64,000 nt of DNA from Deltaproteobacteria bacterium (GTDB lineage: Bacteria; Desulfobacterota; DSM-4660; Desulfatiglandales; HGW-15): positions 1 through 64,000 of the forward strand of contig JAFDEF010000015.1 in NCBI GenBank assembly GCA_019310485.1, given 5' to 3'. Positions 2,767-28,355 of the stretch are shown piece after piece (position 1 is the stretch's first letter; every line of letters begins with the position of its first letter). The notes under the pieces were generated by a model. It saw only the letters and a program-made list of their open reading frames with translations, ran no database searches and was not told where the DNA came from. Position numbers and translations under genes: made by a program.

Positions 2767-4641
2767 ATGTACAAAGGAGGATATACTGGAAAGATCTTGA
2801 GGGTCAATCTTACTGATCAAACTGCAAAGGAAGAACAATTACCCGTGGATACCGCAAGGGATTTTATCGGGGGAGCAGGATTTGGAATCAAGTACCTCTA
2901 CGACGAGGTGCCCGCAGGCACGGACCCCCTTGGACCTGATAACAAGCTTATCTTTGCCCCCGGCCCTTTTTCAGGCACCACCATACCCTGCGCAAGCCGA
3001 ATGGCCGTTACCGGCAAATCCCCGCTAACAGGCGCAGTGGGGATGGCACTTACGGGGGGATATTTCCCTGTGGAGCTCAAATTTGCCGGCTACGATGCAT
3101 TGATAATCGAGGGGAAGGCAAAAAATCCCACCTACCTGTGGATAAAGAACGGCGAAGTGAAGTTTCGCAGTGCAAAAAAAGTGTGGGGTATGAAAACCAC
3201 TGATACCCAGCAAATCATCAAAAACGAGCTGAACGACCAGAACGTGAGGATCGCCTGTATTGGGCCTGCAGGAGAGAACCTGTGCAAAATAGCCTGCATT
3301 ATTAACGAGATGAGGGCTGCAGGACGCAAGGGACTGGGTGCAGTGATGGGATCCAAGAATCTCAAGGCGATCGCAATCAGGGGAAAGGGGAAAGTACCTA
3401 TCGCTGATAAGGAAAAACTAAAAGCAGCAAGAGAGGGAATGACAAAAGCAATGAAGGAAAGCCATGTGCTGTATCCTAATTTCTCAAAAAAGGGCACTCC
3501 GATGGTGGTTGATGCGACTTGCGCCATGGGTATCTTCCCCACTAAGAACTTCTCGGCCACGGGTGAATATGCTCCTGCGGACAAGATCGGTGTTGACGTG
3601 CAGATGGGGCGTAATGTGGGCAGAGAGCACTGCTATGGATGCCCTGTGGGATGCAGCCAGTTAAAGCTTGCAAAGACTGCCCCTTATAAGGGAATATTAA
3701 CTGAGGGCCCGGAATACGAGACCTTTTTCTCCTTCGGCGGGGAAACGGGAGTGGACAATATCGATGCAATTATTGCCGCAGACCGGCTGGCCGACGAGCT
3801 GGGCCTGGATACCATATCAGCGGGCGTTACAATCGGTTTTGCCATGGAACTTTACGAAAAGGGGATACTGTCAAAAGAGGATACGGGAGGACTGGAACTA
3901 AACTTTGGTAACGACCAAGCAATGATTACGCTCTTGCGCCTGATGGCTTTTCGGGAAGGGATCGGCGATTTGCTTGCCGATGGTACAAAAGCGGCGGCAC
4001 AAAAAATCGGGAACGGGTCTGAGAAATACGCTGTACATGTTAAGGGTTTGGAGCTGCCCGCCTATGATGTAAGGGGTGCCAAGGCCCATGGATTAAACTA
4101 TGCAACCTCTTATACTGGTGCTGACCATAACCGCGGTTATGCATTCCAGGAAATTTTCGGTATTCCCATCCCTTATGGGGTAGACAGGTTAGCGGTAGGA
4201 GGAAAAGGGAAGCTTACCAAGTGGAACCAGGATGTTCGCTCTGCCACCTGCGATGCTCCGACCATGTGTGCTTTTCTTCTAGACATGGCCGTTGCCGAAA
4301 TAGCGACACAGAACACTGCATCTCTGATGGAAGCTGTGACCGGGCTCAAATTGAGCGCTGAAGAAGTGCAAAAAGTGGGGGAGAGGATAAACAACCTGGC
4401 AAGGGCCTTCAACGTGCGTGAAGGGTTTACCCGGGCTGACGACACCCTTCCTGAGAGACTGATGATGGAGCCTTTGAAGGAGGGAGCATCAAAGGGCCAG
4501 TTTATCAGCAAAGACGATCTAAACAAAATGCTCAATGAATATTACACTGAGAGGGGATGGGACCTTAACACAGGCGCTCCAACAAGAGGAAAGCTGGTTG
4601 AACTTGGTCTAGAATATGTAGCCAAAGACATCCACTCATAG
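2767..4641 (+). CDS. aor: Aldehyde:ferredoxin oxidoreductase (tungsten enzyme)
   Basis: A 624-residue AOR-family protein, the normal length for the family. These cytoplasmic tungsten-bispterin enzymes oxidise aldehydes to acids, or run in reverse, with ferredoxin. The N-terminal domain starts GGYTGKILRVNLT and the pterin-binding segment includes RKGLGAVMGSKNLKAIA. The cluster cysteines form HCYGCPVGCS (CX2CX3C) near residues 296-305, with the distal cysteine in DAPTMCAF near 500. The ATG has a strong GGGAGGAG upstream. A MoaD-like gene lies just upstream and an FAD/iron-sulfur oxidoreductase lies tail-to-tail downstream. It is a typical AOR and differs clearly from the BamB-like protein at 8438. 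Its substrate is unknown. Confidence 0.92.
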   Translation: MYKGGYTGKILRVNLTDQTAKEEQLPVDTARDFIGGAGFGIKYLYDEVPAGTDPLGPDNKLIFAPGPFSGTTIPCASRMAVTGKSPLTGAVGMALTGGYFPVELKFAGYDALIIEGKAKNPTYLWIKNGEVKFRSAKKVWGMKTTDTQQIIKNELNDQNVRIACIGPAGENLCKIACIINEMRAAGRKGLGAVMGSKNLKAIAIRGKGKVPIADKEKLKAAREGMTKAMKESHVLYPNFSKKGTPMVVDATCAMGIFPTKNFSATGEYAPADKIGVDVQMGRNVGREHCYGCPVGCSQLKLAKTAPYKGILTEGPEYETFFSFGGETGVDNIDAIIAADRLADELGLDTISAGVTIGFAMELYEKGILSKEDTGGLELNFGNDQAMITLLRLMAFREGIGDLLADGTKAAAQKIGNGSEKYAVHVKGLELPAYDVRGAKAHGLNYATSYTGADHNRGYAFQEIFGIPIPYGVDRLAVGGKGKLTKWNQDVRSATCDAPTMCAFLLDMAVAEIATQNTASLMEAVTGLKLSAEEVQKVGERINNLARAFNVREGFTRADDTLPERLMMEPLKEGASKGQFISKDDLNKMLNEYYTERGWDLNTGAPTRGKLVELGLEYVAKDIHS

Positions 4642-4670: not shown

Positions 4671-7190
4671 TTAGAAGAGGTCGTTGTCTGGATCATTGTG
4701 CCCCGGCATCCTGCCGTGCTGCTGGATGTATTTCTGGATTAGCTCACTCTCTCTTTTTGAATACATTTTATCCGGTTCAAAATCAAACCAGGCTGCTTTT
4801 TCATTTTCATCCAGGGCCCGGAGCAACTCCTGCCTGAGATCGGGCGTACCCTTGATGGCAAGCACATTTTGGCCCTTGTCATAGAGCTTAAAGACGCCTT
4901 CCTCTTCCGCTACCTGGGAAATGTTTTCCCTGTTGAAAACCGAGAGCTTTTGTGGGGGCGATGGATCAGAGCTCATGTAAAGGCGCAGGTCGCACTGAAG
5001 GCAACGCTTTGCCTCTTTCAAAGCCTGATCGTTATTGAAGCCCAGACAAACCTCTTGAAACCCCCCGTGCCTGTCTTTGAGTTCAAGCTCAGGCATCTTT
5101 TCCCTGGGCCAGGAACAAAACCCCTCGTCCCTGCCAAGATACTGGCCGGGTGCGTCTCTTTCAAAAAGGACTTCTTCTATGTTGCCAGTGCCCCCAAGGG
5201 CCTTGTCAATTGACGAGGCAGCCTTCCTGCCTGCAACAACTGCATGAACAATGGAGCCTGCAAGGGAAGTAACATCACCGCCGGCATAAACACCCCTCAT
5301 GCCTGTTTCAAGAGTTTTCTCATCAACTACAATAAGACCTCCCTTTACCGAGATAGCGCTGCCTTCTTCTAAGAAAGAGAGATCCACCGCCTGGCCAATT
5401 GCAAGTATGATCTGATCAGTATACATCATTTTCCTTTTCTCGCTAAATGTGGGGTTAAATATGCCCTGATCATCGAACACTGAAACACAGTGGATCAGCT
5501 CCACTCCCTTGACCTCACCATTCTCACTAAGCACCCTGCCGGTTCCCCAGGATGTTATCAGCTTCACTCCTTCTTGAAGAGCCTCCTCTATCTGCCACTT
5601 CTGAGCAGGCATTTCATCGCGCTTTTCAAGGCACACCATGGTCACTTCCTGTGCCCCACATCTCAGGGCGGTTCTAGCCACGTCGAGCGCTACACTTCCG
5701 CCCCCAACCACAATAACTTTTTCTTTTATCCGCACACGCTCTCCCTCTGCTACTTTCGAAAGGAAGTCAACTCCCCACAGCACGTCTTGCAGTTCAACAC
5801 CTTCCAGTGCTATCTGCCTGCTTAGTTGTGCGCCCACCCCTATAAATACTACGTCAAATCCGTCATCTCTAAGCCCTTCAAGAGTGAAATCCCTGCCCAT
5901 GCGATAGTTTGGCTTAAAGTCAATGCCAAGCTCAAAAACCTCACTTATTTCCCTGTCCAGGACATCTTCAGGGAGTCGGTACCTGGGAATCCCGTACCGC
6001 ATCATGCCCCCTGCCCTGCTCCTGGCTTCAAAAACTGTAACGCTGTGCCCCTGTTTTCGAAGATAGAAGGCAGCGCTCAAACCTGAAGGACCGGCTCCGA
6101 CAACAGCCACCTTTTTCCCTGTTTCTTCTTTTACTCTTACGTTTTTCTTCCACAGGCCCTGATCAGCATCTGCTGCATATCTCTTGAGCCCGCAAATGGA
6201 GACCGCCTCATTTACTTCTCCCCTGCGGCATGCTTCCTCGCAAGGCCGAATGCATACCCTGCCAAGGATACCAGGGAAAGGCACCTTTTCTCTTATAACA
6301 GCATTTGCTTCCTCCGGCTTCCCTTGTGAAATCAGCCTCAAATATGTTGGTACATCAACATTTGCAGGGCAGGCCTTCATGCATGCTACTAAGTCTTCTT
6401 TTTCCTTACCCGGGATTAATGACTTATCTGTTAATGCCCCCGTGGGACAAACTTCAACACAGGCTGTACAAAACTTGCACCCTGACTCCTTAAGTGTGGG
6501 GGCAAGGCTTCCAACCTGCACGAGCCCCTTGGCATCATATACAAAGCCTATGGCCTCGATACCCTTCAGATCACGGCATGCTCTTACGCACCGCGTACAC
6601 CCCACACACAGGTTATAATCCCTCAGAAATAGAGGCTCGCTTTTGAGTACGGGTAAATCAGTAGGAGTCCACCTGGGAGTATCCGGCGATATTCCAACAT
6701 AGTTGGCAATGTCTTGAAGCTCGCAGTGACCAAGCTGTGGACAGCACCTCTCGTTTTCAGGAACATTGGAAGAGCACTGGGTTCGGCTGCAGCCCTCCTG
6801 CTCCGAACAGGTAAGGCAGGTGTGCGGATGGCGGGCCAAAATAGGAATCAGGTTTTGCTGCCTTTTCTTCCTGATTCGCTCGCTATCGGTCACCACGATC
6901 ATTCCTTCCACGATCTCCGTGGAGCAGGAAAATACGGGCTCTTTTTCTCCTTCAATTTCCACAACACACAAACCGCAGCCCGTAGCTGATTTTTCATGAA
7001 GCGAATTTTCAACCTTACGACCGCCCTGGTAAATGACCTCTGTCGGCTTACCTCCCTTTGCCTGCGGCAGGTCAGGATGGTAACAAAGTACCGGAATATA
7101 GATTCCCACGCTTCTGGCTGCTTCCAGGATAGTGCTCCCGGATACTGCTTCCACCGCTTGGCCGTCAATTGTAATGTTTAAAGTCTTCAT
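4671..7190 (-). CDS. NuoG-like ferredoxin / GltD-like FAD oxidoreductase fusion
   Basis: An 839-residue multidomain electron-transfer protein. In order it has an N-terminal [2Fe-2S] ferredoxin-like domain (residues 1-105, with [10 protein letters not shown]), a NuoG-type His/Cys cluster region ([14 protein letters not shown], about 118-132), two [4Fe-4S] sites ([13 protein letters not shown] and [16 protein letters not shown]), and a GltD-like module with its own cysteine-rich linker. That module has an FAD fold ([15 protein letters not shown], near 359) and an NAD(P)-binding fold ([17 protein letters not shown], near 490). Between the first and second [2Fe-2S] cysteines there is an unusually long insertion. 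Such proteins shuttle electrons between NAD(P)H and ferredoxin-like partners. The tail-to-tail AOR suggests it oxidises or reduces the AOR electron carrier, which is inference. Confidence 0.85.
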
Positions 7191-8437: not shown

Positions 8438-10441
8438 ATGCGGTATGCAGAGACAGGGTTTAACTTAGAGATTGATTTATCTCGAGGAAGCATTGAGAAG
8501 GTCCCGACCGAGCCAAAACTAACCGAACTCCACCTGGGCGGTCTCGGCACTAATGCCAAGATATTGTGGGATAGAGTTCCCCCCGAGGTAGACCCCCTTT
8601 CCCCTGATAATATACTGATATTTAGCTCTGGCATTTTGGCTGCCACGCCTGCTACAGGTGCCAATCGTACCATCGTTTCAACCTTTTCTCCCCAGACTCT
8701 TTTGATGGCCTTCTCGATGATGGGAGGTTTCTTTGCACCAGAGTTGAAATACGCCGGTTATGACAAAGTCATCATCAGCGGTAAGTCCCCAAGCCTGGTT
8801 TATCTGTGGATAAAAAATGATAAGGTTGAAATACGTGATGCCAGCCACCTTCATGGGAAAGGAGCTCTTGAAACTGCAGACCTCATCAGGCAGGAGTTGA
8901 ATGAACCAAAAGCGCAGGTGGCGGCTATTGGCCTTGCGGGCGAAAACAGCGTCTACTACGCATCCATCGAGCATGGCAGGTCCAGTGCGAGTCGTGGAGG
9001 AATTGGCGCCGTTATGGGGTCTAAAGGCTTAAAGGCCATAGCAGTTCGGGGCACAGGCGATATAAGCCTTGCACGACCTGATGAATTTATCGAGCTATGT
9101 AACGAAGTACTCAAATACATACAACACCGGGCAAGCAACCCTATTAAAGGAGTGCCTCCCATTTTAGCAGGAATTGGCTCACCTCAAGAGATGGCAATCC
9201 ATGATGAGCAATGGCATACCACCAGTTTTGCTTGGGGGCATGCACGTCAGAGAAGAAAAGATTTTTGGACCAAGGAGAGAGAAAAGGAGTGGAGAGAAAC
9301 TCAGGAAAAGGCGGTAGAAAGATTGATAAGCTGCTATAACTGCCCGATGAAATGTGGAGCAGTAGTTTCCTACCCTGCCCTTGGAGTTTCAAAATACATG
9401 ATGAAGTGCTACTCCAAACTTACTTATGTTATGGCTGCCATGGCCGATGACCTGGACTTTGGTTTCAGAATCGCGGGGCGTGCTCAAGAATATGGACTTG
9501 ACAGTTACACCACGCCGCAAGTTATGGCATTCGCAATTGAGCTTTACGAGGCAGGCATTTTGACTGAGGAGGATATGCCGGGGTTTCCATCCCGCAATGA
9601 GGATAGATTTTTTTACTTGGTTGATAAGATTGCCATGAGGGAAGGGATAGGAGATGTCCTGGCCAAGGGCGTTTACTGGGCCGCACGCCAAATAGGGAAA
9701 GGAGCTGAGGCCTTTGATCATAATACCACCAAGAAACATGAACAGATGGTTATTAAGCTGGGAATGCTTAATCCCATTTACTACCTTATGTATGCCACTG
9801 GAGAGAAGATAAGCATCACACAAATTGAGGGGCAGATGCCGCAGGCCCCTCTCCCCAAGGATTACAGAGAGGAATTTATAAAAGACTGGATCCATATTCC
9901 TACCGGAAAGGAAGAAGGGTTTAAACGATTCATCTTGGAGTGGGGCGATGAAGACAAGAGATTTCCGTTTTGGCCTCCTATCGATTTGATTTGTGAACTT
10001 GTAGACTGGCAGGAGACCATGCACTACATTGATGATTGTACGGGAATTTGCGCGGGCCTGTCCTCGTTTCCAATAAAACCTCCCTACCACATACACAATA
10101 TACCTCTTTTTCTTTCCGCGGGCACAGGATTAGATATCGATGAACCAGGGCTGCTGGAAATAGTTAGAAGGAATCGAAACTTGATTAGAGCCGTTAATGT
10201 GAGAAGAGGGCTGAGGAGAAAGGACGAGAAACCTCCTGAAGACCACTGGAAGAAGAGATTCCCCGAACTGGAAGCCAAGCTGCTTGACGAGTATTACAAG
10301 TTCAGGGGATGGAACAAAGAAGGTATCCCCACTAAAGAGGCTCTGGAGGGGCTTGGCCTGGATTATGTGGCCAAAGACCTAATAGAGAGGGGCATCCTGA
10401 CAAACGGTGAGAAACCCTCTTCTAAAGAGGCTTCTGCGTGA
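8438..10441 (+). CDS. bamB: BamB-like tungsten oxidoreductase (class II benzoyl-CoA reductase type)
   Basis: A 667-residue AOR-superfamily protein. Its opening MRYAETGFNLEIDLSRG and the segments LGGLGTNAKILWDRVPPE and SSASRGGIGAVMGSKGLKA are, as I recall the family, characteristic of BamB, the tungsten active-site subunit of ATP-independent benzoyl-CoA reductase. The [4Fe-4S] cysteines are in SCYNCPMKCGA (near residues 298-308), with the distal cysteine in DDCTGICAGL. It differs from the classical AOR at 2767 throughout and has a long mid-region insert. Genes for BamC-, BamD-, BamE- and BamF-like proteins follow on the same strand. No other benzoyl-CoA pathway gene (dienoyl-CoA hydratase, ring hydrolase) is in the window, so a different acyl-CoA substrate remains possible. 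Confidence 0.8.
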   Translation: MRYAETGFNLEIDLSRGSIEKVPTEPKLTELHLGGLGTNAKILWDRVPPEVDPLSPDNILIFSSGILAATPATGANRTIVSTFSPQTLLMAFSMMGGFFAPELKYAGYDKVIISGKSPSLVYLWIKNDKVEIRDASHLHGKGALETADLIRQELNEPKAQVAAIGLAGENSVYYASIEHGRSSASRGGIGAVMGSKGLKAIAVRGTGDISLARPDEFIELCNEVLKYIQHRASNPIKGVPPILAGIGSPQEMAIHDEQWHTTSFAWGHARQRRKDFWTKEREKEWRETQEKAVERLISCYNCPMKCGAVVSYPALGVSKYMMKCYSKLTYVMAAMADDLDFGFRIAGRAQEYGLDSYTTPQVMAFAIELYEAGILTEEDMPGFPSRNEDRFFYLVDKIAMREGIGDVLAKGVYWAARQIGKGAEAFDHNTTKKHEQMVIKLGMLNPIYYLMYATGEKISITQIEGQMPQAPLPKDYREEFIKDWIHIPTGKEEGFKRFILEWGDEDKRFPFWPPIDLICELVDWQETMHYIDDCTGICAGLSSFPIKPPYHIHNIPLFLSAGTGLDIDEPGLLEIVRRNRNLIRAVNVRRGLRRKDEKPPEDHWKKRFPELEAKLLDEYYKFRGWNKEGIPTKEALEGLGLDYVAKDLIERGILTNGEKPSSKEASA

Positions 10442-10477
10442 GCAGAGGACAAACAGAGTGAAGAGGTCGTAATTGCA

Positions 10478-11047
10478 ATGAGTGAGAAAAAAAAGAAAAT
10501 AGTAAAAAGCATAAAAGTGGATGTTGACAAATGCAATGGGTGCCGGGCATGTGAGGTTGCGTGCTCTGCTTTTCATGCATCGCCAAAGTACAGCAGCAAC
10601 AATCCTGGTAGGTCCCGGGTTCGTGTAATACATGAACCCCTCAAAAACATATTTGTTCCTGTGTTTGCAGGGGAGTACACGGAAGCTGAATGTGCGGGAA
10701 GAGACAAGTACGTGATTGACGGAAAGGAATACGATGAGTGTGCCTTTTGCAGGGCATCATGCCCTTCAAGAGATTTGTTTAAGGAACCCGACTCGGGTCT
10801 TCCTCTAAAATGCGATATGTGCGAATCAGAACCTCCGCTCGAGGAGCCCTTGTGTGTTCAGTGGTGCCTGGCGGATGCTCTCACATACGAGGAAAGGGAA
10901 GAGGAAGTGGAGGAAGAGGAAGAAGAAGAGCAGATGGAAGACATTGAGTTGGGGTTGGAGTCATTGGTGGACAAATATGGGTTTGACAAGATAGTTGATG
11001 CAGTTGCCAGGCTGGCTGAGTCAAAGAAGGGCGAAATATCTAAATGA
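10478..11047 (+). CDS. bamC: BamC-like polyferredoxin subunit
   Basis: A 189-residue iron-sulfur protein of the HycB/DmsB type, expected to carry electrons into the tungsten subunit encoded just upstream. Cysteine groups are DKCNGCRACEVACSAFH near residue 14, DECAFCRASCPSRD near 87, and KCDMCE followed by EEPLCVQWCLADAL near 112-135. This gives room for three [4Fe-4S] clusters. The C-terminal tail begins with a run of mostly glutamate (REEEVEEEEEEE) and then a short helical segment, unlike a plain ferredoxin. The gene starts 36 bases after bamB, consistent with co-transcription and with the BamBC complex known from Geobacter. Confidence 0.8.
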   Translation: MSEKKKKIVKSIKVDVDKCNGCRACEVACSAFHASPKYSSNNPGRSRVRVIHEPLKNIFVPVFAGEYTEAECAGRDKYVIDGKEYDECAFCRASCPSRDLFKEPDSGLPLKCDMCESEPPLEEPLCVQWCLADALTYEEREEEVEEEEEEEQMEDIELGLESLVDKYGFDKIVDAVARLAESKKGEISK

Positions 11048-11071
11048 GAACAAAGAGGACTGAGGAAGAAA

Positions 11072-12223
11072 GTGGAAAACCTGGCCGACTTTAAAGAGAT
11101 AGTAGATCTCATAAAAGACAACGGTGGAGAAGCCTTCAGTAGATGTTTTGAGTGCGGATTGTGCGATACTGTTTGTCCCTGGAACAGGGTAACAACACTC
11201 AGCATGCGCAAGATAGTTCGACAGGCCACTTTTGGTTTGACGGAAATTGAAAATGAAGAGATTTGGCGCTGCACCACTTGCGGAAGATGCCCTCAGCGCT
11301 GTCCACGGGACGTACAACAAATAGAATCGGTAGTATCCTTGCGTAGGATTGCAACGGAATACGGCGTTTTCCCCACCCCTGTCAAGCCTGTGCGTACGGC
11401 AAGTGCAAGTCTGGTCGCTGAAGGCAACCCCTTGAATGAGGAACGCAGCAAAAGGGCAGATTGGGCCAAGGATCTGTCCGTAAAGACTTTTGCCGAGGGA
11501 ATGGAGATTTTATACTTTCCCGGTTGCTATCTCAGCTATGACCCGAGACTAAAAAAGGTGGGCAGAGCTACGGCCACTATTCTTAGCCGTGCAGGAGTAG
11601 ATTTTGGGATACTCGGAGCGAAGGAGAATTGCTGCGGGGAAAGCATCCGAAAGACAGGGGAGGAGGAATTATTCAAACGCTTGGCCAGGGAAAACATCAA
11701 AAACTTTATTGATAACGGGGTGAAAAAGATCCTTGTCTCCTCGCCTCATTGCTACCACACCTTTAAAAACGAGTATCCTGAATTTAGGGTGAACTTCGAG
11801 ATCGTTCATATCACCCAGTTCTTGCTTGAGCTTATTAGCCAGGGAAGGCTTAAGCTCAACAAGGAGTATAAGAAGAAAGTTACCTATCATGATCCATGTT
11901 ACTTGGGACGGCATAACGGAATATATGAAGAGCCCCGAGAGATCCTGAAGAACGTGCCGGGCCTAGAATTGACGGAGATGCCCGACACCCTGGCAGACAG
12001 CCTGTGTTGCGGAGGGGGTGGGGGCAGGATATGGATGGAAACACCAAAGGGGGAAAGGTTCTCTGATCTCAGGTTAGGACAGGCCATAGGCGTGGGGGCT
12101 GAAGCTCTGGTCACGTGCTGCCCTTATTGCATTACCAATTTCGAAGACAGCAGGTTGAATCTGGAGGGGGGCGAAGCCATAGAGGTCAAAGATATAACGG
12201 AAATAGTACTGGAAACTATGTAG
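11072..12223 (+). CDS. bamD: BamD-like HdrC/HdrB fusion iron-sulfur protein
   Basis: A 383-residue protein joining an HdrC-like domain and an HdrB/HdrD-like domain. The N-terminal part has two [4Fe-4S] motifs, CFECGLCDTVCPWNR near residue 24 and CTTCGRCPQRCPRD near 67. The C-terminal part has two CCG modules, GCYLSYDP...ENCCGES (about 150-192) and DPCYLG...SLCCGGGGG (about 275-313), which in HdrB bind the noncubane clusters. It therefore resembles the disulfide-reducing arm of heterodisulfide reductase reused as an electron carrier. The GTG start at 11072 has GAGGAAG upstream and follows bamC by 24 bases. Confidence 0.82.
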   Translation: MENLADFKEIVDLIKDNGGEAFSRCFECGLCDTVCPWNRVTTLSMRKIVRQATFGLTEIENEEIWRCTTCGRCPQRCPRDVQQIESVVSLRRIATEYGVFPTPVKPVRTASASLVAEGNPLNEERSKRADWAKDLSVKTFAEGMEILYFPGCYLSYDPRLKKVGRATATILSRAGVDFGILGAKENCCGESIRKTGEEELFKRLARENIKNFIDNGVKKILVSSPHCYHTFKNEYPEFRVNFEIVHITQFLLELISQGRLKLNKEYKKKVTYHDPCYLGRHNGIYEEPREILKNVPGLELTEMPDTLADSLCCGGGGGRIWMETPKGERFSDLRLGQAIGVGAEALVTCCPYCITNFEDSRLNLEGGEAIEVKDITEIVLETM

Positions 12224-12356
12224 AATAAGCGCGGCCAGGCCGGCCAACTGCGTTACAATTATGACAAGAACCTTATGCTATTTCAGCTCTTTTCCATGAT
12301 CCTATTTCCTAGTTTTAGAAGGTTAAAGAGCTAAAATCTGATTGAGGTGATGGCAA

Positions 12357-15300
12357 GTGGAAAAGGAACTACTGATAAAAGAAAAGATTCAACAACTTCG
12401 CAAAAGTGTTGGGGACGGTAATTTCGGAGACGTAATGGTTGTTGGTGGAGGGATAAGCGGTATTCAAGCTTCTCTTGATCTAGCCACTGCCGGTTTCAGG
12501 GTCTACCTTGTTGAAAGATTACCTGCTATCGGCGGCCATATGGCTCAGCTGGACAAGACCTTCCCCACCAATGACTGCTCCATGTGAATACTTGCGCCCA
12601 AACTGGTCGAGGTCGGCCGGCATCCTAACATAGAGGTTCTTACCTATACCGAAATTGACCGCGTAGAAGGTGGAGCAGGAGACTTCAGGATAACCCTGAT
12701 TAAGAAGCCCAGGTATGTCATAGAGGACAAATGCACAGGGTGTACTACCTGTGTGGAATACTGCCCTGTGGAATTCCCTGATCCATACAACCAGGAAATA
12801 TCCAACAATAAAGCCGTGCATATCTACTTCTCGCAGGCAGTTCCTCTCATTACCTACATTGATGAGAGCTGTCTTTACCTTAAAGAGAAAAAATGCGCCA
12901 TCTGTGAATCAGTCTGCCAGAATGAAGCCATAGATCTCAAGCAGGAACCCGAAAAAATGGAAATAAAAGTAGGGGCGATAGTGCTTTCTCCCGGCTTTGA
13001 GCCGTTTGATCCAAGGGTCAAGGAAGAATATGGCTATGGAAAGCTCCAGAACGTGGTAACCAGCCTGGACTATGAACGGCTCCTGTGCTCTACTGGGCCA
13101 TACGAAGGTGAGATATTGCGCGCTTCGGACAAGAAACACCCTCACAAAATAGCCTGGATTCAATGCGTCGGATCAAGGCGAGTCACACATGGCGACAACA
13201 GTTACTGTTCGGCTGTGTGCTGCACCTATACACAAAAACAGGTAATCCTTACAAAAGATCATAACGCGGATGCAGAATGCACTGTATTTCATAATGATAT
13301 TCGCTCCTATGGCAAGGATTTTGAAACTTATTACCAGAGAGCTGAGCAGCTACCGGGGACACGCTTCATAAGAAGTTACGTTTCAATCGTGGGAGAAGAT
13401 CCGGAAACCAAGAATGTGATTGTAAGGTATGCTACTGCGCAGGAGGGAGTGAAAGAGGAAGACTTCGACCTGGTGGTGCTGTCAGTTGGATTGAATCCCC
13501 CTGCTGATTACAAAAGCCTGGCAGAGAAATTTGGCATCGAGCTTGATTCGCACGGTTTTTGCAAAACCAATCCTGTGAATCCTATTGAGACCTCTCGCCC
13601 GGGTATTTTTGCTAGCGGAGCCTTCCAGGGCCCTGTCGACATTCCCGAGTCGGTTTTTTCCGCCAGCGGAGCAGGTTCCCAGTGTGGAGAGCTTCTTGCC
13701 TACAGGCGTGGCAAGCTCGCAAAGGAAAGGGTATATGAGCCGGAAAAAGATCTTTCTGGGGAAGAACCTAGGGTAGGTGTTTTTGTGTGTCATTGCGGGG
13801 CAAACATTGGAAGAGTAGTGGATGTTCCATCTACGGTTGAATATGCACTGGGTCTACCTAATGTTGTCTATGCTCAAGAACAGCTATTTTCATGTGCTAC
13901 TAATTCTGCCAAAGAAATAACGGACATGATAAAGGAAAAAGGGCTCAACCGAGTGGTTGTTGCTGCCTGCAGTCCCAGAACTCTTGAACCCTTGTTCTGG
14001 GACACGCTTCGGGAAGCTGGAATCAATCAATATTTCCTTGAAATGGCCAATATCAGGGAACATTGCTCCTGGGTACACTCTTTAGAAAAGGAAGAAGCCA
14101 CACTGAAAGCAAAGGACATAATCAGGATGGCGGTAGCCAGGGCTCGTCACCTGGAGCCGCTTCAAGAAATTGACCTGCCTGTAAACAAAGCTGCATTGAT
14201 TGTGGGTGGAGGTATAGCCGGCATGACCTGTGCCCTGTCAATAGCCAAGCAGGGGCATGAGGTTCACCTGGTAGAAAAGAACCCAGAGCTTGGGGGAATG
14301 GCAAGAAGAATCCATTACACCCTGGAAGGGCTAGACGTTCAATCCTATTTGGGGGATCTTGTAGCCAAGGTCTATCAGCATCCCTCAATACACGTCTATA
14401 CTGATGCTACAATCACAGAGGCAACAGGGTATGTGGGCAATTTCGTCACCAAGGTGGAATCAGGAACAAGGGTGGCTGAGATAAAACACGGGGTAGCTAT
14501 TATCGCGGCAGGTGCGAGGGAATACAAGCCCACTGAGTATCTTTACGGAGAAGATGACAGGGTAATGACGCACCTCGAGCTGGAGGAGCACATTGCCAAA
14601 AGCGATGAAAAAGTAACTAAAGCAAAGAGCCTGGTAATGATTCAATGTGTGGGGTGTAGAAATGAAGACAGGAATTACTGCAGCCGGATATGCTGTACCC
14701 TCGCTGTAAAAAACGCCCTCAAATTGAAGGAGATAAATCCGGAGATGGATATCTACATCCTCTTCCGGGATATGAGAACCTATGGGTTCAGGGAAGATTA
14801 TTACCGTGAAGCATCAAATAAAGATGTAAAGTTCATTCGATATGAACCCGACGATAAACCCGGCGTAGAAGCGGCTGAGCGTGAGGGGCACCCTGTTCTG
14901 AGAGTTAGCGTGTCTGATAATATCTTAGGCCAAAAGCTCGCAATAGATGCAGACATAATAGCTCTGGCTGCAGCGGTTATACCTCCGGAAGCAAACAAAG
15001 AAATATCCCAATTGTTCAAGGTCACCCTGGGGCCGGATGACTTCTTCAAGGAAGCCCACGTTAAGCTAAGACCTGTGGAGTTTGCTGCAGAAGGCGTTTA
15101 TCTTTGCGGGATGGCTCATTATCCCAAGCATATTCCTGAGGCGATTAACCAGGCTTACGGAGCTGCGGGCCGAGCCTTGACTCTTCTTTCCCACGATATT
15201 GTCACTGTTTCGGGTTCTGTTTGCGAGGTGGAGGAAAAGAGGTGCATGGGATGTGGGGCGTGTATCTCGGTCTGTGCCTATAGTGCAATAGAGTTTCGTG

Positions 15301-15491
15301 AAACACGCCAGGGGAGAAAGGCCGTAGTTAATCCTGTTATCTGCAAAGGGGATGGTCTGTGTAATGCAATGTGCCCCACAGGGGCTATTTCGTTAAAGCA
15401 CTACACTGATGAAGAGATCATAAGCCAGATTGATGCAGCGGCAGAAGAGGAGATTCCACAAAAAATGGAAGCCGCTGTTGGTGATATATAG
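12357..15491 (+). CDS. bamE: BamE/HdrA-like bifurcating flavoprotein, predicted selenoprotein (Sec77)
   Basis: Reading through the in-frame TGA at 12585-12587 gives a 1044-residue HdrA-like protein. The TGA falls in [15 protein letters not shown], where HdrA proteins have cysteine or, in known selenoproteins, Sec. The sequence continues in frame with family features on both sides. Order: FAD fold [12 protein letters not shown] (about 27), Sec77, two ferredoxin motifs ([26 protein letters not shown]), CVGSRR...CSAVCC (about 267), a second FAD fold [15 protein letters not shown] (about 612), [17 protein letters not shown] (about 762), and C-terminal [10 protein letters not shown] and GDGLCNAMC clusters. 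It is thus a tandem HdrA-type protein. GTG start with GAGGTGA upstream. It probably bifurcates electrons for the BamB-like enzyme. Confidence 0.9.
12603..12620 (+). promoter_or_regulatory. bSECIS-like hairpin of the HdrA-like gene
   Basis: The mRNA 15 bases after the UGA can form a 7-bp stem, CUGGUCG with CGGCCGG (two G-U pairs near the base, one inside), closing a 4-base AGGU loop. Bacterial SECIS elements are small stem-loops shortly after UGA with a G among the first two loop bases. Here the loop begins 22 bases after UGA, inside the usual range. Confidence 0.72.
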
Positions 15492-15514
15492 AAGCACAAA
15501 TGGGGTAAGAACGA

Positions 15515-16372
15515 ATGAGTACTAGATCCATATTTAAGCCGAGAATTCTGGGCTTTGTGTGCCACTGGTGAGGATACGGGGCTGCTGACCTAGCTGGAGT
15601 TTCCAGACTACAATATTCAACTGAAATCAGGCTTATTAGAGTTATGTGCTCGGGCAGAGTGGACCTGGCGTTTGTGCTCAGAGCCTTCTTGAATGGAATG
15701 GACGGGGTATTTATTGGCGGGTGCCGTTTAAACGAATGTAACTATGTTACCCACGGGAATTACCGTGCGCTAAACATGGTGCTCCTGTGCAAAAGAATAA
15801 TGGAACACATTGGGCTCAACCCGGAGAGGCTAAGTATCGAATTTATGACTTCCGGCGAGGGAATCCGTTTTGCCCAGTTAATGAACATGTTCGGCAAGAA
15901 AATCAAGGGCCTGGGACCTCTTGGAAAAGCTGAAGGAATCAGTGAAAATGAACTAAAGTCTAAACTCGAAGAAGTGAGGAAGCTGATTCCCTACATTAAG
16001 ATAGTGGAAAGAGAGAAGCTGGAGTCTCGTCTTGAAAACGAAGAAGAATATGAGGGTTATTTCACACGCGAGGAGATAGAGAGTTTATTTCGCGAAGTAC
16101 CTTCCTACTACATTGATCCTGAAAAGTGCCAGGCCTGCATGATTTGCCTCAGGAAATGTCCTGCAGAGGCTGTTATAGGAGGCAAGAACCTGATACACGT
16201 AATTGACCAGGATAAATGCATAAAGTGCGGAACATGCTTTGAATCTTGCCCCCCGCGCTTTGCTGCCGTGAAAAAGATTACCGGTGAGCCTGCACCTCCT
16301 CCAATTCCTGAAGAACAAAGAACCATAGTCCGAAAGAGCAAGAAAACCAGCAAGAGAACCAGTGCCGCATAA
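15515..16372 (+). CDS. bamF: BamF/MvhD-like protein with ferredoxin domain, predicted selenoprotein (Sec19)
   Basis: From the ATG at 15515 the frame runs through TGA at 15569-15571 to 16372, giving 285 residues. The N-terminus reads RILGFVCHW-U-GYGAADLAGV; MvhD/FrhD proteins have FxCNWCxYxGAD here, so Sec replaces the second cysteine of the cluster-binding CxxC. The MvhD core continues (MCSGRVDLAFVLRAF, GCRLNECNY). The C-terminal part adds a two-cluster ferredoxin (KCQACMICLRKCP near 199, KCIKCGTCFESCPP near 233) and a basic tail. MvhD passes electrons to HdrA, and the gene starts 23 bases after bamE, so the two predicted selenoproteins probably contact each other. An annotation that stops at UGA would start at 15644 and lose the motif. 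Confidence 0.9.
15594..15606 (+). promoter_or_regulatory. bSECIS-like hairpin of the MvhD-like gene
   Basis: Twenty-two bases after the UGA, CUGGA pairs perfectly with UCCAG around a GUU loop. The stem is short (5 bp), but loop position and the G at the first loop base meet the bacterial SECIS pattern. It is weaker than the hairpins in the HdrA-like and rnfB genes. Confidence 0.6.
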
Positions 16373-16418: not shown

Positions 16419-17273
16419 TTGAACGGGTCAGGAAATAATACTAGATCCTACCAGGTTATTTGGTGTGAAAGAGACATCTGCCGGAGCAGTTCTCAAGAAT
16501 TGATTGGAGAAGAACCTCTTTTGATTCGTATTGATGGGAAAGCATATTCAGTGGTAATGAGAACGCCCGGGGAGGAGGTATTCCACGCAGCGGGCCTATG
16601 TCTTGGGGAAGGGATCGTGGATTCTCCTGACGATTTTGCCACCATAGGCTACTGTGAAGAACTGGATCCAAATGCTATTGATATTCGGCTTAGACCCGAA
16701 AGGCGCCAAAGAATTCCTGATATTCTTGACAGAAGGGGCTTTGTCAGCCAGACCAGTTGCGGCATTTGCGGCAAAGAAATGATCAGGGACCTCTTTCAGA
16801 TACTGGCGCCCGCTCAAGATGACTTCAAAATTGAGATCAGCCGGGTTCTTGATTGTGCCAACAGACTTTCAAGAAACCAGAGCTACTACCAGAGAACAAA
16901 GGGATCGCACGCTGCAATGATATTTGACAATCAGCTTGAGGTGATCTCTTTTGCTGAAGATGTCGGTCGACACAATGCCCTTGACAAGGCAATAGGAAAG
17001 GCCTTTATGAATAAGAAGCTGCCCGAGGCCTCAATTCTGATTCTGTCTTCAAGGATAAGCTATGAATTGGTCCAAAAAGCCGCAAGAGCGCAGATCCCGA
17101 TCATGATCAGCAAATCAAGACCAACCGCCCTTGCCGCTGAAATGGGCCTAGCCCTTAACATGACTCTTGCATGCTCTCCCAGTGAATCAGAGTTGATAAT
17201 AGTATGCGGTGAAAAACGACTGCTGAGACAACAGAATACCTTGATGGGGCTGAAAACAGCAGGGCTGGCTTGA
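16419..17273 (+). CDS. fdhD: FdhD, sulfur-carrier/sulfurtransferase for formate dehydrogenase-type enzymes
   Basis: A 284-residue FdhD-family protein. FdhD transfers sulfur from a cysteine desulfurase to the Mo or W bis-pterin cofactor of formate dehydrogenases and relatives. The active-site loop TSCGICGKE with both cysteines is near residues 112-120, and ISFAEDVGRHNALDKAIGKA is the conserved cofactor-binding stretch. TTG start, with AAGGAAG about 10 bases upstream. It follows bamF by 46 bases and may share its transcript. The client enzyme is not certain: it could be the molybdopterin oxidoreductase cut by the left window edge or a formate dehydrogenase elsewhere. Confidence 0.9.
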   Translation: MNGSGNNTRSYQVIWCERDICRSSSQELIGEEPLLIRIDGKAYSVVMRTPGEEVFHAAGLCLGEGIVDSPDDFATIGYCEELDPNAIDIRLRPERRQRIPDILDRRGFVSQTSCGICGKEMIRDLFQILAPAQDDFKIEISRVLDCANRLSRNQSYYQRTKGSHAAMIFDNQLEVISFAEDVGRHNALDKAIGKAFMNKKLPEASILILSSRISYELVQKAARAQIPIMISKSRPTALAAEMGLALNMTLACSPSESELIIVCGEKRLLRQQNTLMGLKTAGLA

Positions 17274-22115: not shown

Positions 22116-22184
22116 TTCCAGATTGTGCTGATTGCTGCACCTAAGCCCATTTGAATTGAGCGACTCTCAAGTTTGCCTGGGACT

Positions 22185-23513
22185 ATGAACAAAGGATTGC
22201 TGACTTTTCCAAAAGGCGGCGTTCATCCGCCGGAATCAAAAGAACTGACAGAGCATTTGCCTGTAGAAGCAGTGCCTGTTCCCTCGCAAGTGGATATTCT
22301 GCTAACCCAGCACTTCGGGGCGCCTTGCGAGCCCGTGGTGAAAAAGAAGGACCAGGTTGCCGAAGGAGATCGCATTGGCGATGTGGAAGCAGGGCTGGGG
22401 GCAAGCGTGCACGCTAGCGTTAGCGGGAAAGTCAAGAACATAGGCTTTGCTGCCCACCCCATAACTGTCAGGGCACCTTGCATCACCATAGAAACAGACA
22501 CTGAGGCTCCTCCCCGCAAGTTTGAACCTTGCGAGTGGTCCAGCCTTTCAAAAGAAGGGCTCCTTGCCAAAATCAAGAAAGCAGGAATAGTAGGTATTGG
22601 GGGCGCGGGATTTCCCACGCATGTGAAACTGTCTCCTCCTCCGGAAGCAAAAGTAGACACCCTGATAATTAACGGAGCTGAATGTGAGCCTTACCTTACC
22701 ACGGACCATCGTCTCATGCTGGAGCATGCGGAGGAAATCATTGAGGGCGCAAAGATTATCCTTACCATTCTTGGCATCAAGCAGGCCCATATTGGCATTG
22801 AGGTTAACAAGGCTGATGCCATTGAGGCAATGATGGAGGCTGTTTCAAAAGCTTCCCTGAACGGTTTTGATGTCAAAGTGGCGCCCCTTAAAGTCAAGTA
22901 TCCACAGGGATCTGAGAAACAACTCATTCAGAGCATAACCGGACGCAAAGTTCCCGGATTCGGCCTGCCCTTTGATGTGGGAGTCATCGTTCAAAACGCT
23001 GGAACCACGAAGGCTATTTATGATGCAGTGGTTCTTGACAAACCCTTGTATGAAAAAGTGATAACCGTGTCCGGGAAAGGGATCAAGAGGCCTGCCAACT
23101 TGCTTGTCAGGATTGGTACAAGAGTTTCCGATATTGTATCCTTCCTAGGCGGGATAAACGAGGACCTGGCAAAAGTAGTGCTGGGCGGGCCCATGATGGG
23201 TTTTGCGGTTCCCAGCCTGGATGTGCCGGTCATCAAGACCACTTCTGGGATCCTATTCTTGACCCAAGATGAAATTGACACGAGCCCTCACGGGCAGTGC
23301 ATTCGGTGCGGGTGGTGCCTTGAGGCCTGCCCTATGGGCCTTTCTCCAAATGAAATAGGCATATACGTTGAAGGAGGACAGGCTGAAAATACGGCCCAAT
23401 TCGGGGTATTTGAGTGTTTCGAGTGCGGCTGCTGCGCCTATGTCTGCCCTGCCAAGAGGCCTCTGGTACAGTTTATTCGGCTGGCAAAAATGAAGGCAAA
23501 GAAAAGCATGTGA
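22185..23513 (+). CDS. rnfC: Rnf complex subunit C (NADH/FMN and FeS subunit)
   Basis: A 442-residue RnfC, the peripheral subunit that handles NAD(H) with FMN and two [4Fe-4S] clusters. The NADH/FMN-binding region has VGIGGAGFPTHVKLSPP near residue 136 and NGAECEPYLTTDHRLM. The C-terminal clusters are QCIRCGWCLEACPMG (about 370) and CFECGCCAYVCPAKRP (about 411). I use the ATG at 22185 (NKGLLTFPKGGVHPPESK); a TTG at 22173 is in frame. It is the first gene of the rnfCDGEAB order seen in many anaerobes. Length is typical of short RnfC proteins without the alanine-rich tail. Confidence 0.94.
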   Translation: MNKGLLTFPKGGVHPPESKELTEHLPVEAVPVPSQVDILLTQHFGAPCEPVVKKKDQVAEGDRIGDVEAGLGASVHASVSGKVKNIGFAAHPITVRAPCITIETDTEAPPRKFEPCEWSSLSKEGLLAKIKKAGIVGIGGAGFPTHVKLSPPPEAKVDTLIINGAECEPYLTTDHRLMLEHAEEIIEGAKIILTILGIKQAHIGIEVNKADAIEAMMEAVSKASLNGFDVKVAPLKVKYPQGSEKQLIQSITGRKVPGFGLPFDVGVIVQNAGTTKAIYDAVVLDKPLYEKVITVSGKGIKRPANLLVRIGTRVSDIVSFLGGINEDLAKVVLGGPMMGFAVPSLDVPVIKTTSGILFLTQDEIDTSPHGQCIRCGWCLEACPMGLSPNEIGIYVEGGQAENTAQFGVFECFECGCCAYVCPAKRPLVQFIRLAKMKAKKSM

Positions 23514-23617
23514 TCTTACTTTATGGCTAGAACGGAATGTAGGTTTAGGCATCGAAATTAGAAGCGAACAGGAGGCGTAAGAAGGCCATCGAAGATCAGG
23601 CAAAAGAAAACCAGGCT

Positions 23618-24643
23618 ATGGCACCGGAACCCTCCATTCTGGCAGTCTCCGTGTCCCCGCACATCAGGAGCGGAGAATCTGTTGAGAAAATAATGTGGAC
23701 GGTCGTTGCCTGCTTGCTGCCCCCCCTCATCCTGTCTATTTTCATTTTCGGCTTTCAAACCCTGATTATCACCCTGATCAGCGTTGCAAGCTGTGTTGTA
23801 GTGGAAGCCGTTTCTCAAAAGCTCTTGCACCGCCCAATTACAATCAAAGATGGCAGCGCAGTGATCACAGGACTTTTGCTCGCCTACATTATTCCGCCCG
23901 GTGTCCCATACTGGATGCCGATCCTGGGTTCTGTAATGGCCATTTATGTAGCCAAGCATCTTCTCGGCGGCATTGGATTCAATTTTTTCAACCCCGCTCT
24001 TATTGGTCGCGCTTTCCTGGTCGCCACTTTTCCCGTTGCCATGACATCTGCCTGGCTTCCTCCCATTCGCCATGCGTCCATCTTCAAGTACATGGGAGGT
24101 GGGGTGGATGCTGTGTCAACCGCTACACCACTCTATGTTCTCAAACATTACGGACTTGGAGCCGTAATAGAAAAGTTTGGCTCTATAAGTACAATATATG
24201 GAAATTTCTTCATCGGCTGGAGGCCGGGCTGCATTGGCGAGACTTCTGCCCTGCTTCTCCTTCTTGGAGGCCTTTTTCTGCTCTACAAGAAATATATCAC
24301 CTGGCACATACCCGTCTCCATGATCGGGACCATCGCCCTTCTCACGTGGGCATTTGGTGGAGAAAGAGCTTTTGGCGGAGACCCGCTTCTGGCTATTCTC
24401 TCAGGCGGCGTAATAATTGGCGCTTTTTTTATGGCCACGGACTATGTTACATCCCCGTCCCAGCCTACTGCAAAGCTGATATTCGGAGTATGTATTGGGG
24501 CATTAACGGTTTTGATCAGATTGAAAGGCGGGTACCCAGAGGGAGTATGCTATGCGATTCTTTTGATGAATCCGCTGACACCTGCTTTTGAACTGTGGTT
24601 TAAACCCAAGCGTTTCGCTGCACAAAAAGGTGCGCTTAAATGA
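23618..24643 (+). CDS. rnfD: Rnf complex subunit D (membrane, FMN-binding)
   Basis: A 341-residue multi-pass inner-membrane subunit homologous to NqrB. It begins SILAVSVSPHIRSGESVEKIM, typical of RnfD. The covalent flavinylation site is probably STATPL near residue 166, in the position of the S(T/G)AT motif modified by ApbE. Several hydrophobic helices follow. The strongest ribosome-binding site (AGGAGG) is unusually far, about 40 bases before the ATG, so the true start may be a non-standard codon upstream. It overlaps rnfG by 4 bases. Confidence 0.92.
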   Translation: MAPEPSILAVSVSPHIRSGESVEKIMWTVVACLLPPLILSIFIFGFQTLIITLISVASCVVVEAVSQKLLHRPITIKDGSAVITGLLLAYIIPPGVPYWMPILGSVMAIYVAKHLLGGIGFNFFNPALIGRAFLVATFPVAMTSAWLPPIRHASIFKYMGGGVDAVSTATPLYVLKHYGLGAVIEKFGSISTIYGNFFIGWRPGCIGETSALLLLLGGLFLLYKKYITWHIPVSMIGTIALLTWAFGGERAFGGDPLLAILSGGVIIGAFFMATDYVTSPSQPTAKLIFGVCIGALTVLIRLKGGYPEGVCYAILLMNPLTPAFELWFKPKRFAAQKGALK

Positions 24644-25554
24644 GAGAAATTCTGAGAATCACTATTGGCCTGACGGTTTCTTGTCTGATCGCCGCGCTCG
24701 TGATGGGAGCGGTGTTCACCATTACCGACAAGGCGAAAAAGCACAACGAGTACATGAACGTGCAGCAAACCATGCTCGGTCTTCTCGGGTATTCCAAATC
24801 ACATCCTGCACCATCCGAGCTGAAGTTTGAGACTATTTACAGATACATTGTGGCTGAAGGCCAAACCCGCTACCTGGGCTACCTGGTGCCTGTCAAAAAG
24901 AATGGAAAAGAAAATTACGCATTCTTGCTGCTTGATTTAGAAGGTAAACTCAAGAAGCTTTATAGTGTCGATATGAGGCCGGAGGCGGCCATCGAGGCAT
25001 CAGAGAGAGAAAAAGCGCTTCATGAGATTCTAAAGCCACCAAGAAAATTTAACTATGCGGATTCATTTATTATAGCAGTGCTGGGCCGGCAACGCGTGGC
25101 ATACCTTATCCCAGGGGAATTTCCCGGCTTCAAGACTTTTGTAAGAGTTATGCTTGCGCTTGATCCATCCTTCACCATTAAGGGACTTGAAATAATGGAA
25201 CAAGAAGAAGATCCGGGCCTTGGTGGAGAAATTGTCCAGGAATATTTCAAGAACCAGTTTGTAGATAAACCCTTTAAGAAGATTGCATCACTGAAAGTAA
25301 TAAAAAAGCCGCTTCCAAGCGAATACAGGAAGTATCTTGAAAGGAAGAAATGGAAGAAGGGCATGTTTACGCGGGAACAAATTGAGGAGATCCGCAAGAA
25401 ATACCGGAGCGCGGATATCTATGCCCTAACAGGAGCTACTATTTCAAGCAGGGCCGTGACCAATGGTGTGAAGAACATGGTCAAGAAATTTGCTTACAGA
25501 GAAAAGATGCTTGAACGAGTAATTGCCGAAGAAAACATTCAGGCTGCGTTCTAA
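24640..25554 (+). CDS. rnfG: Rnf complex subunit G (covalent FMN)
   Basis: A 304-residue protein with one N-terminal membrane segment (ILRITIGLTVSCLIAALVMG) and a large extracytoplasmic domain. The conserved flavinylation site LTGATISSRAV near residues 262-272 has the threonine to which ApbE attaches FMN. It is somewhat longer than Escherichia RsxG (about 206) because of an insert in the middle. It overlaps rnfD (ATGA), indicating translational coupling, and 139 bases separate it from rnfE. Confidence 0.93.
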   Translation: MREILRITIGLTVSCLIAALVMGAVFTITDKAKKHNEYMNVQQTMLGLLGYSKSHPAPSELKFETIYRYIVAEGQTRYLGYLVPVKKNGKENYAFLLLDLEGKLKKLYSVDMRPEAAIEASEREKALHEILKPPRKFNYADSFIIAVLGRQRVAYLIPGEFPGFKTFVRVMLALDPSFTIKGLEIMEQEEDPGLGGEIVQEYFKNQFVDKPFKKIASLKVIKKPLPSEYRKYLERKKWKKGMFTREQIEEIRKKYRSADIYALTGATISSRAVTNGVKNMVKKFAYREKMLERVIAEENIQAAF

Positions 25555-25693
25555 GAAATTTTGTGCGGCTTTTTCCGAGTGGCGGGAAGCTGGTTTTTAA
25601 ACTGGAGTGAAACGATAACAAGCTACGCATTTCACAAGGCAGAAATTGTGAAGAATAGCTTTTTGTGGATGAAAACTTAGGAGGGATGAAAGC

Positions 25694-26314
25694 TTGGCAA
25701 CTACAAAGACCCCCTCTCGCCTGGTCTTAAACGGGCTGTTAAACGAAAATCCGATTTTTCGCCTCGCGCTTTCAATGTGCCCGGCTGTCGGTATCAGCAC
25801 CACTGTTATGAACGGGCTGATGCTGGGCACCGCAGTGCTTTTTGTACAGGTCTGCTCCAGTTGCACAATTGCCGCTATCAAAAACTACATTCATCCCCGG
25901 ATTCGCATCCCCACCTATACCCTGACCATTGCAACATGGGTAACGGTAATTGACCTGGTGCTTTCCGCATACGCTCCCGAAGCATATAAGGCGATGGGAA
26001 TCTTTATCAAATTGATAGTAGCCTTTGCTATTATTACCATGCGCCTTGAGGTATTTGCCTGCAAAAACACGGTAGCCATGTCTTTCTGGGATGGCTTGGG
26101 GATGGGACTTGGTTTTATGTTCGGCATGGTTACGCTTGGTTTCATCCGTGAACTTCTTGGGATGGGAACCCTTCTCGGACATAATGTACTGGGGTTTCGC
26201 CCGCTTCTGTTCTTTGCGCTTCCGCTCGCCGGGTTTTTTTGTGTGGGTTTTATGATGGCAATCTTTAATTACGTGGAGCTCGTTTTTAACAGGAGAAAGA
26301 AAAGGAGAGGCTGA
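25694..26314 (+). CDS. rnfE: Rnf complex subunit E (membrane)
   Basis: A 206-residue RnfE/NqrD-type integral membrane protein with about six helices. It shows the family elements ENPIFRLALSMCPAVG and LEVFACKNTVAMSFWDGLGMGLGF, whose cysteine lies in the membrane-embedded [2Fe-2S] site shared by RnfA and RnfE. TTG start at 25694, selected for GGAGGG eight bases upstream. It precedes rnfA by 6 bases. Confidence 0.93.
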   Translation: MATTKTPSRLVLNGLLNENPIFRLALSMCPAVGISTTVMNGLMLGTAVLFVQVCSSCTIAAIKNYIHPRIRIPTYTLTIATWVTVIDLVLSAYAPEAYKAMGIFIKLIVAFAIITMRLEVFACKNTVAMSFWDGLGMGLGFMFGMVTLGFIRELLGMGTLLGHNVLGFRPLLFFALPLAGFFCVGFMMAIFNYVELVFNRRKKRRG

Positions 26315-26320
26315 GAGACA

Positions 26321-27289
26321 ATGGCACGCTTAAGACGAATTACTTACCTTACCCTGGGCTTTCTCCTGCTGGCGTACTTGCTGGTTTTCTCGGGGTGTGC
26401 AGGCTCTCAGAATCGGTTCATAAAAAAGACATCTTTTAGGGGGACCCACAGTATTCTAATTACCTTTGCCGGTCCGGTTGACGAGGAGTGGGCCACAAAG
26501 GCGTCAAACTATCGCGTGTACGAAAAGCCAGATCCTGACATTGTGCTCAAGATTAGCACGATAGAGCTGAGTACGAACAGGCAAACGGTTATTCTCCACT
26601 TTGAAGAACCCCTCAACCAGAATCAGCCCCACATGGTAACCATGAGGGGAATTATGACTGAGGGAAAATCCGTGGGCACGGCCATTGTCAAGGTAAGGAA
26701 ACTTTACCTTGGTTACCTGTTTTCCATCCTAATCGGTGCAATGCTCGTACAAAACTTTGTGTTCACCAAGTACCTGGGTCTCTGCGTGTTTTTTGGGACT
26801 TCGCAGAAAAGGTCAACTGCCGTTGGGATGGGAGTCACCTTTACTATTGTGATTGTGGCGAGTGCAATGATGTCGTGGTTCCTTTACCAGTTTTTCTTAA
26901 AGCCCTTTCACCTGGATTTTCTGCAGATCATTGTATTTATCGGCCTGGTTTCCCTGTCTGTGCAGGCGGTGGATACGATTCTTAGAAAGGTGAACCCGAT
27001 GCTGTTTAAGGCGTTCGGCGTGTACCTAGTTCTCGTAATCGCCAACTGTATTATCCTGGCCGTTCCCCTTATTCTGGCCGATAATGAGTACAATGCTGCC
27101 GAGAGTCTCATGCTCGCGCTTGGTGCCGGGCTTGGATTCTTGATTGCTCTGTTTCTAATGTCCTCTGTACGAGAGCGCCTTGAGCTCGCTAATGTTCCGC
27201 CCACGTACAGAGGACTGCCGATAGCATTTGTTGTGGCAGGGCTTTTTGCCCTGGCATTCCTGGGGTTTTCAGGAATGTCAATTTTTTGA
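26321..27289 (+). CDS. rnfA: RnfA with an N-terminal lipoprotein/Ig-like extension
   Basis: A 322-residue protein. Residues from about 128 onwards are a complete RnfA/NqrE (LYLGYLFSILIGAMLVQNFVF, KYLGLCVFFGTS, VSLSVQAVDTILRKVNP) with about six helices. Ordinary RnfA is about 190 residues. The extra N-terminus has a lipoprotein-type signal with lipobox LVFSGC (Cys26) and then a beta-rich stretch of about 95 residues (ITFAGPVDEEWATKASNYRV, VILHFEEPLNQNQPHMVTM) resembling SbsA/Ig-like domains. If Cys26 is lipidated, the domain sits outside the cytoplasmic membrane at the N-terminal end of RnfA. The coding frame is continuous, so this is not two genes. Confidence 0.9.
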   Translation: MARLRRITYLTLGFLLLAYLLVFSGCAGSQNRFIKKTSFRGTHSILITFAGPVDEEWATKASNYRVYEKPDPDIVLKISTIELSTNRQTVILHFEEPLNQNQPHMVTMRGIMTEGKSVGTAIVKVRKLYLGYLFSILIGAMLVQNFVFTKYLGLCVFFGTSQKRSTAVGMGVTFTIVIVASAMMSWFLYQFFLKPFHLDFLQIIVFIGLVSLSVQAVDTILRKVNPMLFKAFGVYLVLVIANCIILAVPLILADNEYNAAESLMLALGAGLGFLIALFLMSSVRERLELANVPPTYRGLPIAFVVAGLFALAFLGFSGMSIF

Positions 27290-27392
27290 CTTGTTATATA
27301 CGAGAAGATCATGCTTCTTGCCGAGAACCCAGTTCCTGCGCGGAACTTGTTACCAGAGAATTCATCATGGAAACCAGAGGGGAAGTACATAT

Positions 27393-28259: not shown

Positions 28260-28355
28260 AACGAGAAATTCAAAACTTGTTCGACACAAGGAATTGTGTT
28301 GCCATCAAGGCTAGTTGGTGGTAAATGTTTTGTAATTTTTGAGTGGAGGCACACA

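Follow-up and report, generated by a model that had tools for sequence, protein, structure and literature searches.

Class II benzoyl-CoA reductase works at an extreme redox potential and needs no ATP to reduce the benzene ring; to our knowledge, how electrons are raised to this enzyme is an open question. The Geobacter enzyme reportedly contains selenium, with BamF as a selenoprotein, in work of the Boll group (Wischgoll 2005, Loeffler 2011, Huwiler 2019).

The gene described here most closely recalls the Geobacter-type BamF of the class II (tungsten) enzyme, Gmet_2083 (accessible text of PMC1924859), the likeness being in the operon order bamBCDEF and the MvhD domain. TGA stands at the same bamF codon in five loci of the Geobacter branch (L115, L117, L123, L127 and L135), but these differ in having a BamE with cysteine and a BamF that is 57-58% identical. 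A further difference is the lack of bamGHI beside bamF in the window (the whole stretch of DNA analysed, 64,000 nucleotides of contig JAFDEF010000015.1); in strain NaphS2, too, bamB-F and bamG-I are in two clusters (PMC2988823, available part).

Selenocysteine (Sec) in a CxxU motif occurs in FrhD/MvhD/VhuD and in HdrA, at times within one operon in Deltaproteobacteria (PMC13188914 and PMC2702500, as far as their accessible text extends). The former proteins have the family (PF02662) and the CxxU motif in common with BamF (PMC13188914, same portion), but the window BamF is fused to a C-terminal two-cluster ferredoxin part and is placed with BamE and BamB, whereas Sec-FrhD/MvhD/VhuD are placed with hydrogenase or formate dehydrogenase. 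In D. multivorans, Sec is described in BamE (dmul_C24500/10) and in an mvhD gene, and the available part of that account names no Sec in BamF (PMC5109826). Sec-HdrA and Sec-BamE resemble BamF as complex neighbours with a CxxU motif and a SECIS of their own, but belong to another protein family. BamF itself appears as a selenite-related subunit by prediction only (PMC13119186, accessible text). The literature searched, partly accessible and with the primary papers on the complex outside its scope, yielded no printed statement of Sec in BamF. Sec-MvhD, Sec-HdrA and Sec-BamE are already published; Sec-BamF reportedly is as well.

The bam operon and the bamF reading frame

Almost certainly, the gene at the center of this analysis is bamF, whose MvhD-like product transfers electrons within a class II (tungsten) benzoyl-CoA reductase, and its UGA is read as Sec19 by means of a SECIS element. 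The gene order bamBCDEF is found in the window (8438-16372) and in related loci (Table 1). The match of BamB to the solved chain spans the whole length (1042.8 bits), and the alignment conserves Glu251, His255, His260 and Cys322 of 4z3w, which we take to be the active-site residues of the solved enzyme. The bamC product is 56-80% identical to that of the gene in the same place at other loci. The product of the adjoining fdhD would take part in cofactor maturation of the Bam complex.

Table 1. Coordinates of the bam genes and of the predicted recoding signals in the window
Feature	Position	Strand	Description	Basis
bamB	8438..10441	+	tungsten benzoyl-CoA reductase catalytic subunit	phmmer to 4z3w_A
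bamC	10478..11047	+	ferredoxin-like subunit	weak Fer4 matches
bamD	11072..12223	+	CCG-domain HdrBC-like subunit	PF02754, E 4.7e-39
bamE	12381..15491	+	double HdrA-type flavin/Fe-S protein with predicted Sec; start approximate (12381 used)	
UGA of bamE	12585..12587	+	predicted codon for Sec in CSMUILAPK	in-frame codon, orthologue comparison
SECIS of bamE	12603..12620	+	predicted hairpin, CUGGUCG-AGGU-CGGCCGG	consensus fold, seven pairs
bamF	15515..16372	+	285 aa with TGA as Sec19; MvhD/FlpD domain and C-terminal ferredoxin part	
UGA of bamF	15569..15571	+	predicted codon for Sec19	reading frame and orthologue comparison
SECIS of bamF	15594..15606	+	predicted bacterial SECIS, CUGG-A-GU-U-(U)-CCAG, 22 nt after the UGA	pairs conserved across orthologues
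fdhD	16419..17273	+	sulfurtransferase gene adjoining bamF	PF02634, E 2.3e-58

An Rnf-type operon (22173-29417, plus strand) lies a few kb from the bam genes. It encodes an rnfC-like protein, an RnfD-like protein, an FMN-binding protein, two membrane subunits of the Rnf-Nqr type and ApbE (28296-29417). The nearby Complex1_51K gene was considered as part of bamGHI and rejected, as it is rnfC-like and within this operon; two further Complex1_51K genes are on contigs C9 and C97 of the genome. On the other side of the bam genes are a gene for a second enzyme of the aldehyde:ferredoxin-oxidoreductase type (2767-4641, plus strand) and, convergent with it, a HoxU-like/GltD-like fusion gene (4671-7190, minus strand).

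Translated from the ATG at 15515 to the stop at 16370-16372, bamF contains the TGA as its sole internal stop. With this codon as Sec, the translation begins MSTRSIFKPRILGFVCHW-U-GYGAADLAGVSRLQY... and includes the motif FVCHW-U-GYG. The preliminary description held that the TGA interrupts the standard gene model, and it does: the ORF list made with table 11 has bamF begin only at ATG 15644 (242 aa), without residues 1-43. Annotation with table 11 accordingly truncates the gene and loses the Sec motif.

The selenocysteine site of BamF

BamF residues 11-134 match Pfam PF02662 (FlpD/MvhD; E 1.6e-44, 151.3 bits against a curated cut-off of 22.3), and the C-terminus contains two [4Fe-4S] ferredoxin motifs at about residues 198-247 (Fer4 profile match). 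The solved chains nearest in sequence are MvhD and its kin from Hdr complexes (5odc_D, 8rvu_F and 7bkb_F). An AlphaFold2 model of BamF has a mean pLDDT of 89.9, and its N-domain superimposes on the MvhD-type chains 5odh_D, 5odc_D, 8rvu_F and 7bkb_F with target TM values of 0.92-0.97; the prediction places no cluster, and a [2Fe-2S] cluster in BamF is suggested by homologues.

Alignment with the solved MvhD chains 5odc_D and 7bkb_F puts the TGA at the second Cys of the MvhD CxxC, as had been proposed from the window alone. Among the best 80 of 570 confirmed matches in GTDB loci, this site is TGA in 74 and TGC or TGT in six (L084, L095, L099, L100, L113 and L119), with no third state; the query was the part of BamF after the Sec and was therefore blind to the codon at the site. 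Within the same order, TGA is found in each of the 28 orthologues whose sequence reaches the site (29 loci besides the window's own, of which L041 stops short of it). One further locus, L164, with a BamF of 70% and no stop, was considered as a Cys form and excluded from that count: an assembly gap (NN, L164:10010-10020) occupies the expected TGA, and the SECIS sequence is intact downstream.

Counting Sec as Cys, C16, position 19, C45, C70 and C75 are invariant in a 30-row alignment (28 BamF and two paralogues). Sec19 replaces the second residue of a CxxC which, with C45, C70 and C75, makes up the five-cysteine site of MvhD proteins; most probably it is a selenolate ligand to, or next to, a [2Fe-2S] cluster. 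Alternatively, Sec19 could ligate no cluster and act as a redox-active selenol, for example in a selenenylsulfide with a neighboring Cys, gating the transfer of electrons to the flavin of BamE. Two observations point this way. The five invariant Cys/Sec positions are one more than a [2Fe-2S] cluster needs, and a second, vicinal Cys directly follows the site (CNW-C-C) in all 18 Cys forms of BamF (the six above and L165-L176), while the residue after Sec in the 74 Sec forms is Ala, Gly or Val and never Cys. Yet the Cys beyond the cluster's need may have a structural function, and the one that follows the site in the Cys forms could mark a single clade; we regard a redox selenol as possible, if clearly the less probable role.

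With Sec19 in its likeliest role, BamF would hand electrons to the flavin of BamE and then on towards BamB. Both the contact between BamE and BamF and this direction of flow are presumed, the former by analogy with complexes in which HdrA and MvhD touch and the MvhD [2Fe-2S] cluster is near the FAD of HdrA (accessible part of PMC12350162).

Recoding of the UGA codon

We compared the region after the TGA in 100 sequences: that of the window, those of the 80 GTDB loci, and 19 taken from the 28 orthologues of the order that cover the site. A length filter and the removal of copies left 97, of which 91 have TGA and six have Cys; twelve more Cys orthologues were read from codons, for a total of 18. 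All five pairs of the hairpin are present in each of the 91 Sec orthologues. The pair between the third base of codon 8 and the first base of codon 12 is UA in 90 and GC in one (L087), and that joining codons 9 and 10 at their third bases is AU in 84, CG in four and GC in three, so that two pairs are kept through compensatory synonymous changes. In codons 8-12 after the UGA, the third base hardly varies (entropy 0.00-0.47), compared with mean entropies of 1.63 (codons 27-60) and 1.76 (codons 61-119) at fourfold sites further downstream. A covariation count on 30 rows, picked to include pair variants, found both partners changed in eight cells, where shuffles gave 0.9 (0 of 500 as high), and in none with slid versions of the hairpin. 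The codon-8/codon-12 pair is found in none of the 18 Cys orthologues.

The preliminary description had noted a hairpin after the TGA. A conserved SECIS does stand there, but the fold of the window sequence alone is not above chance (z -0.55, with 49 of 200 shuffles as good) and its minimum-energy fold differs from the conserved hairpin. Likewise, the sequences after the UGA in the 91 Sec orthologues have a mean z of +0.53 to +0.74 against synonymous recodings, and so are slightly the less stable. We therefore rejected stability as proof of the SECIS, which rests on conservation and on covariation of few events; together these lead us to predict that the hairpin is a real SECIS. Two variants of its structure were also rejected: a GUU loop whose closing pair joins codon 9 (third base) to codon 11 (first base; 97.2% of cells paired versus 100%, with one cell changed on either side of the pair versus eight), and a longer lower stem with codons 7 and 13, which is not kept throughout the orthologues. 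The apical GU with its covarying closing pair presumably resembles the SECIS of E. coli fdhF.

The hairpin, 22 nt downstream, would recruit SelB with Sec-tRNA, by which the UGA would be read as Sec. The genome encodes a tRNA-Sec with anticodon TCA and has matches to SelB (388.5 bits), SelA (623.7 bits) and SelD (372 bits); its selD (L141, G000:C2:12271-13197) itself contains an in-frame TGA. From the comparison of reading frames and orthologues, BamF with Sec19 is thus predicted to be a selenoprotein of class II benzoyl-CoA reductase.

Three other accounts of the codon were weighed. The UGA could truly terminate, with a short BamF made from ATG 15644, which is the ORF that table 11 gives; we consider this very improbable, as the protein encoded ahead of 15644 is conserved (FKPRILGFVCHW) and includes two of the five invariant Cys positions, and a SECIS follows the UGA. 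The chance of a sequencing error (a true TGC or TGT) or of a dead gene is smaller still: TGA is only one base away from a codon for Cys and the assembly is in 103 pieces, but the relatives described above share the TGA, which refutes this reading, and bamF has no other stop, conserved residues on both sides of the TGA, and a SECIS that is kept only where the TGA stands. Genome-wide reassignment of UGA, for instance to Trp, would fit the several genes of the genome that are open only with TGA read through, but it is next to impossible given that bamB and bamC end at TGA and readthrough would fuse both with bamD, that the tRNA-Trp seen has a CCA anticodon and relatives have Cys, not Trp, at the TGA, and that tRNA-Sec and SelA/B/D are present.

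BamE and the distribution of Sec and Cys

BamE matches NCBIfam HdrA2 (E 4.2e-288) and is 60-81% identical to BamE of those related loci that show one. The suggestion that it, too, carries Sec is borne out by the in-frame TGA and a SECIS of its own (Table 1). The consensus of 53 Sec orthologues, the window's included, folds into a seven-pair hairpin (-10.3 kcal/mol), and codons 6-11 after the UGA are frozen at their third bases in these orthologues; the consensus of 21 Cys orthologues does not fold into this hairpin. On these grounds, BamE and BamF are both predicted to be selenoproteins of one class II benzoyl-CoA reductase.

The two proteins were surveyed together in 93 loci, the best 80 of the 570 matches plus 13 picked for lacking the stop, so that the share of Cys forms is not a frequency. 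BamE was unreadable in 17 loci with Sec-BamF and three with Cys-BamF, and the BamF site is an assembly gap in one. In the 72 loci where both are readable, the BamF/BamE pairs are Sec/Sec in 51, Sec/Cys in six, Cys/Cys in 15 and Cys/Sec in none; that is, BamE has Sec in 0 of 15 loci where BamF has Cys. In the Cys forms of BamE, a further Cys follows nine residues after the first (CIESPKFxEC, 21 of 21), at a place where 48 of the 53 Sec forms have Val.

This pattern, together with the extra Cys near the site in the Cys forms of both proteins, could mean that BamF is the first to gain Sec and that BamE follows only where BamF already has it. If so, such ordered, paid-for use of Sec would suggest that the two Sec act as a single relay, with one selenolate in the role of two Cys. 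We advance this only tentatively and think it rather doubtful. A quick tree (97 rows) shows clustering of Sec and of Cys orthologues; it places the Geobacter-type Sec-BamF inside the branch with the Cys forms and requires two changes of the Cys label. The 18 Cys loci therefore amount to about two independent changes, and the links noted above may be clade marks.

BamB was found in six of the 18 loci with Cys-BamF. Such Cys versions alongside bamB show that neither the fold nor this type of operon strictly requires selenium; because Cys forms of both proteins exist, also with bamB, the chemistry works without selenium in other lineages. An electron path that depends on selenium, as the preliminary description proposed, a potential tuned by selenium, and a benefit of the element are matters of inference. 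Paired Sec sites around the presumed bifurcating flavin, together with the natural Sec/Cys variants, offer a direct handle on the importance of selenium for the electron-raising step. Separately, in L084 (20.8 kb), L167 and L168, bamE-bamF pairs occur with no BamB match in several kb upstream, and the BamEF module may serve other complexes too.

In-frame TGA codons are found in four of the eight FlpD genes of the source genome. In one paralogous MvhD (L002, G000:C15:38264-38650, minus strand), CNWC is kept and the TGA is at a later Cys (SG-U-HPGDCHY), which suggests Sec at two different Cys positions of the MvhD family within one genome.
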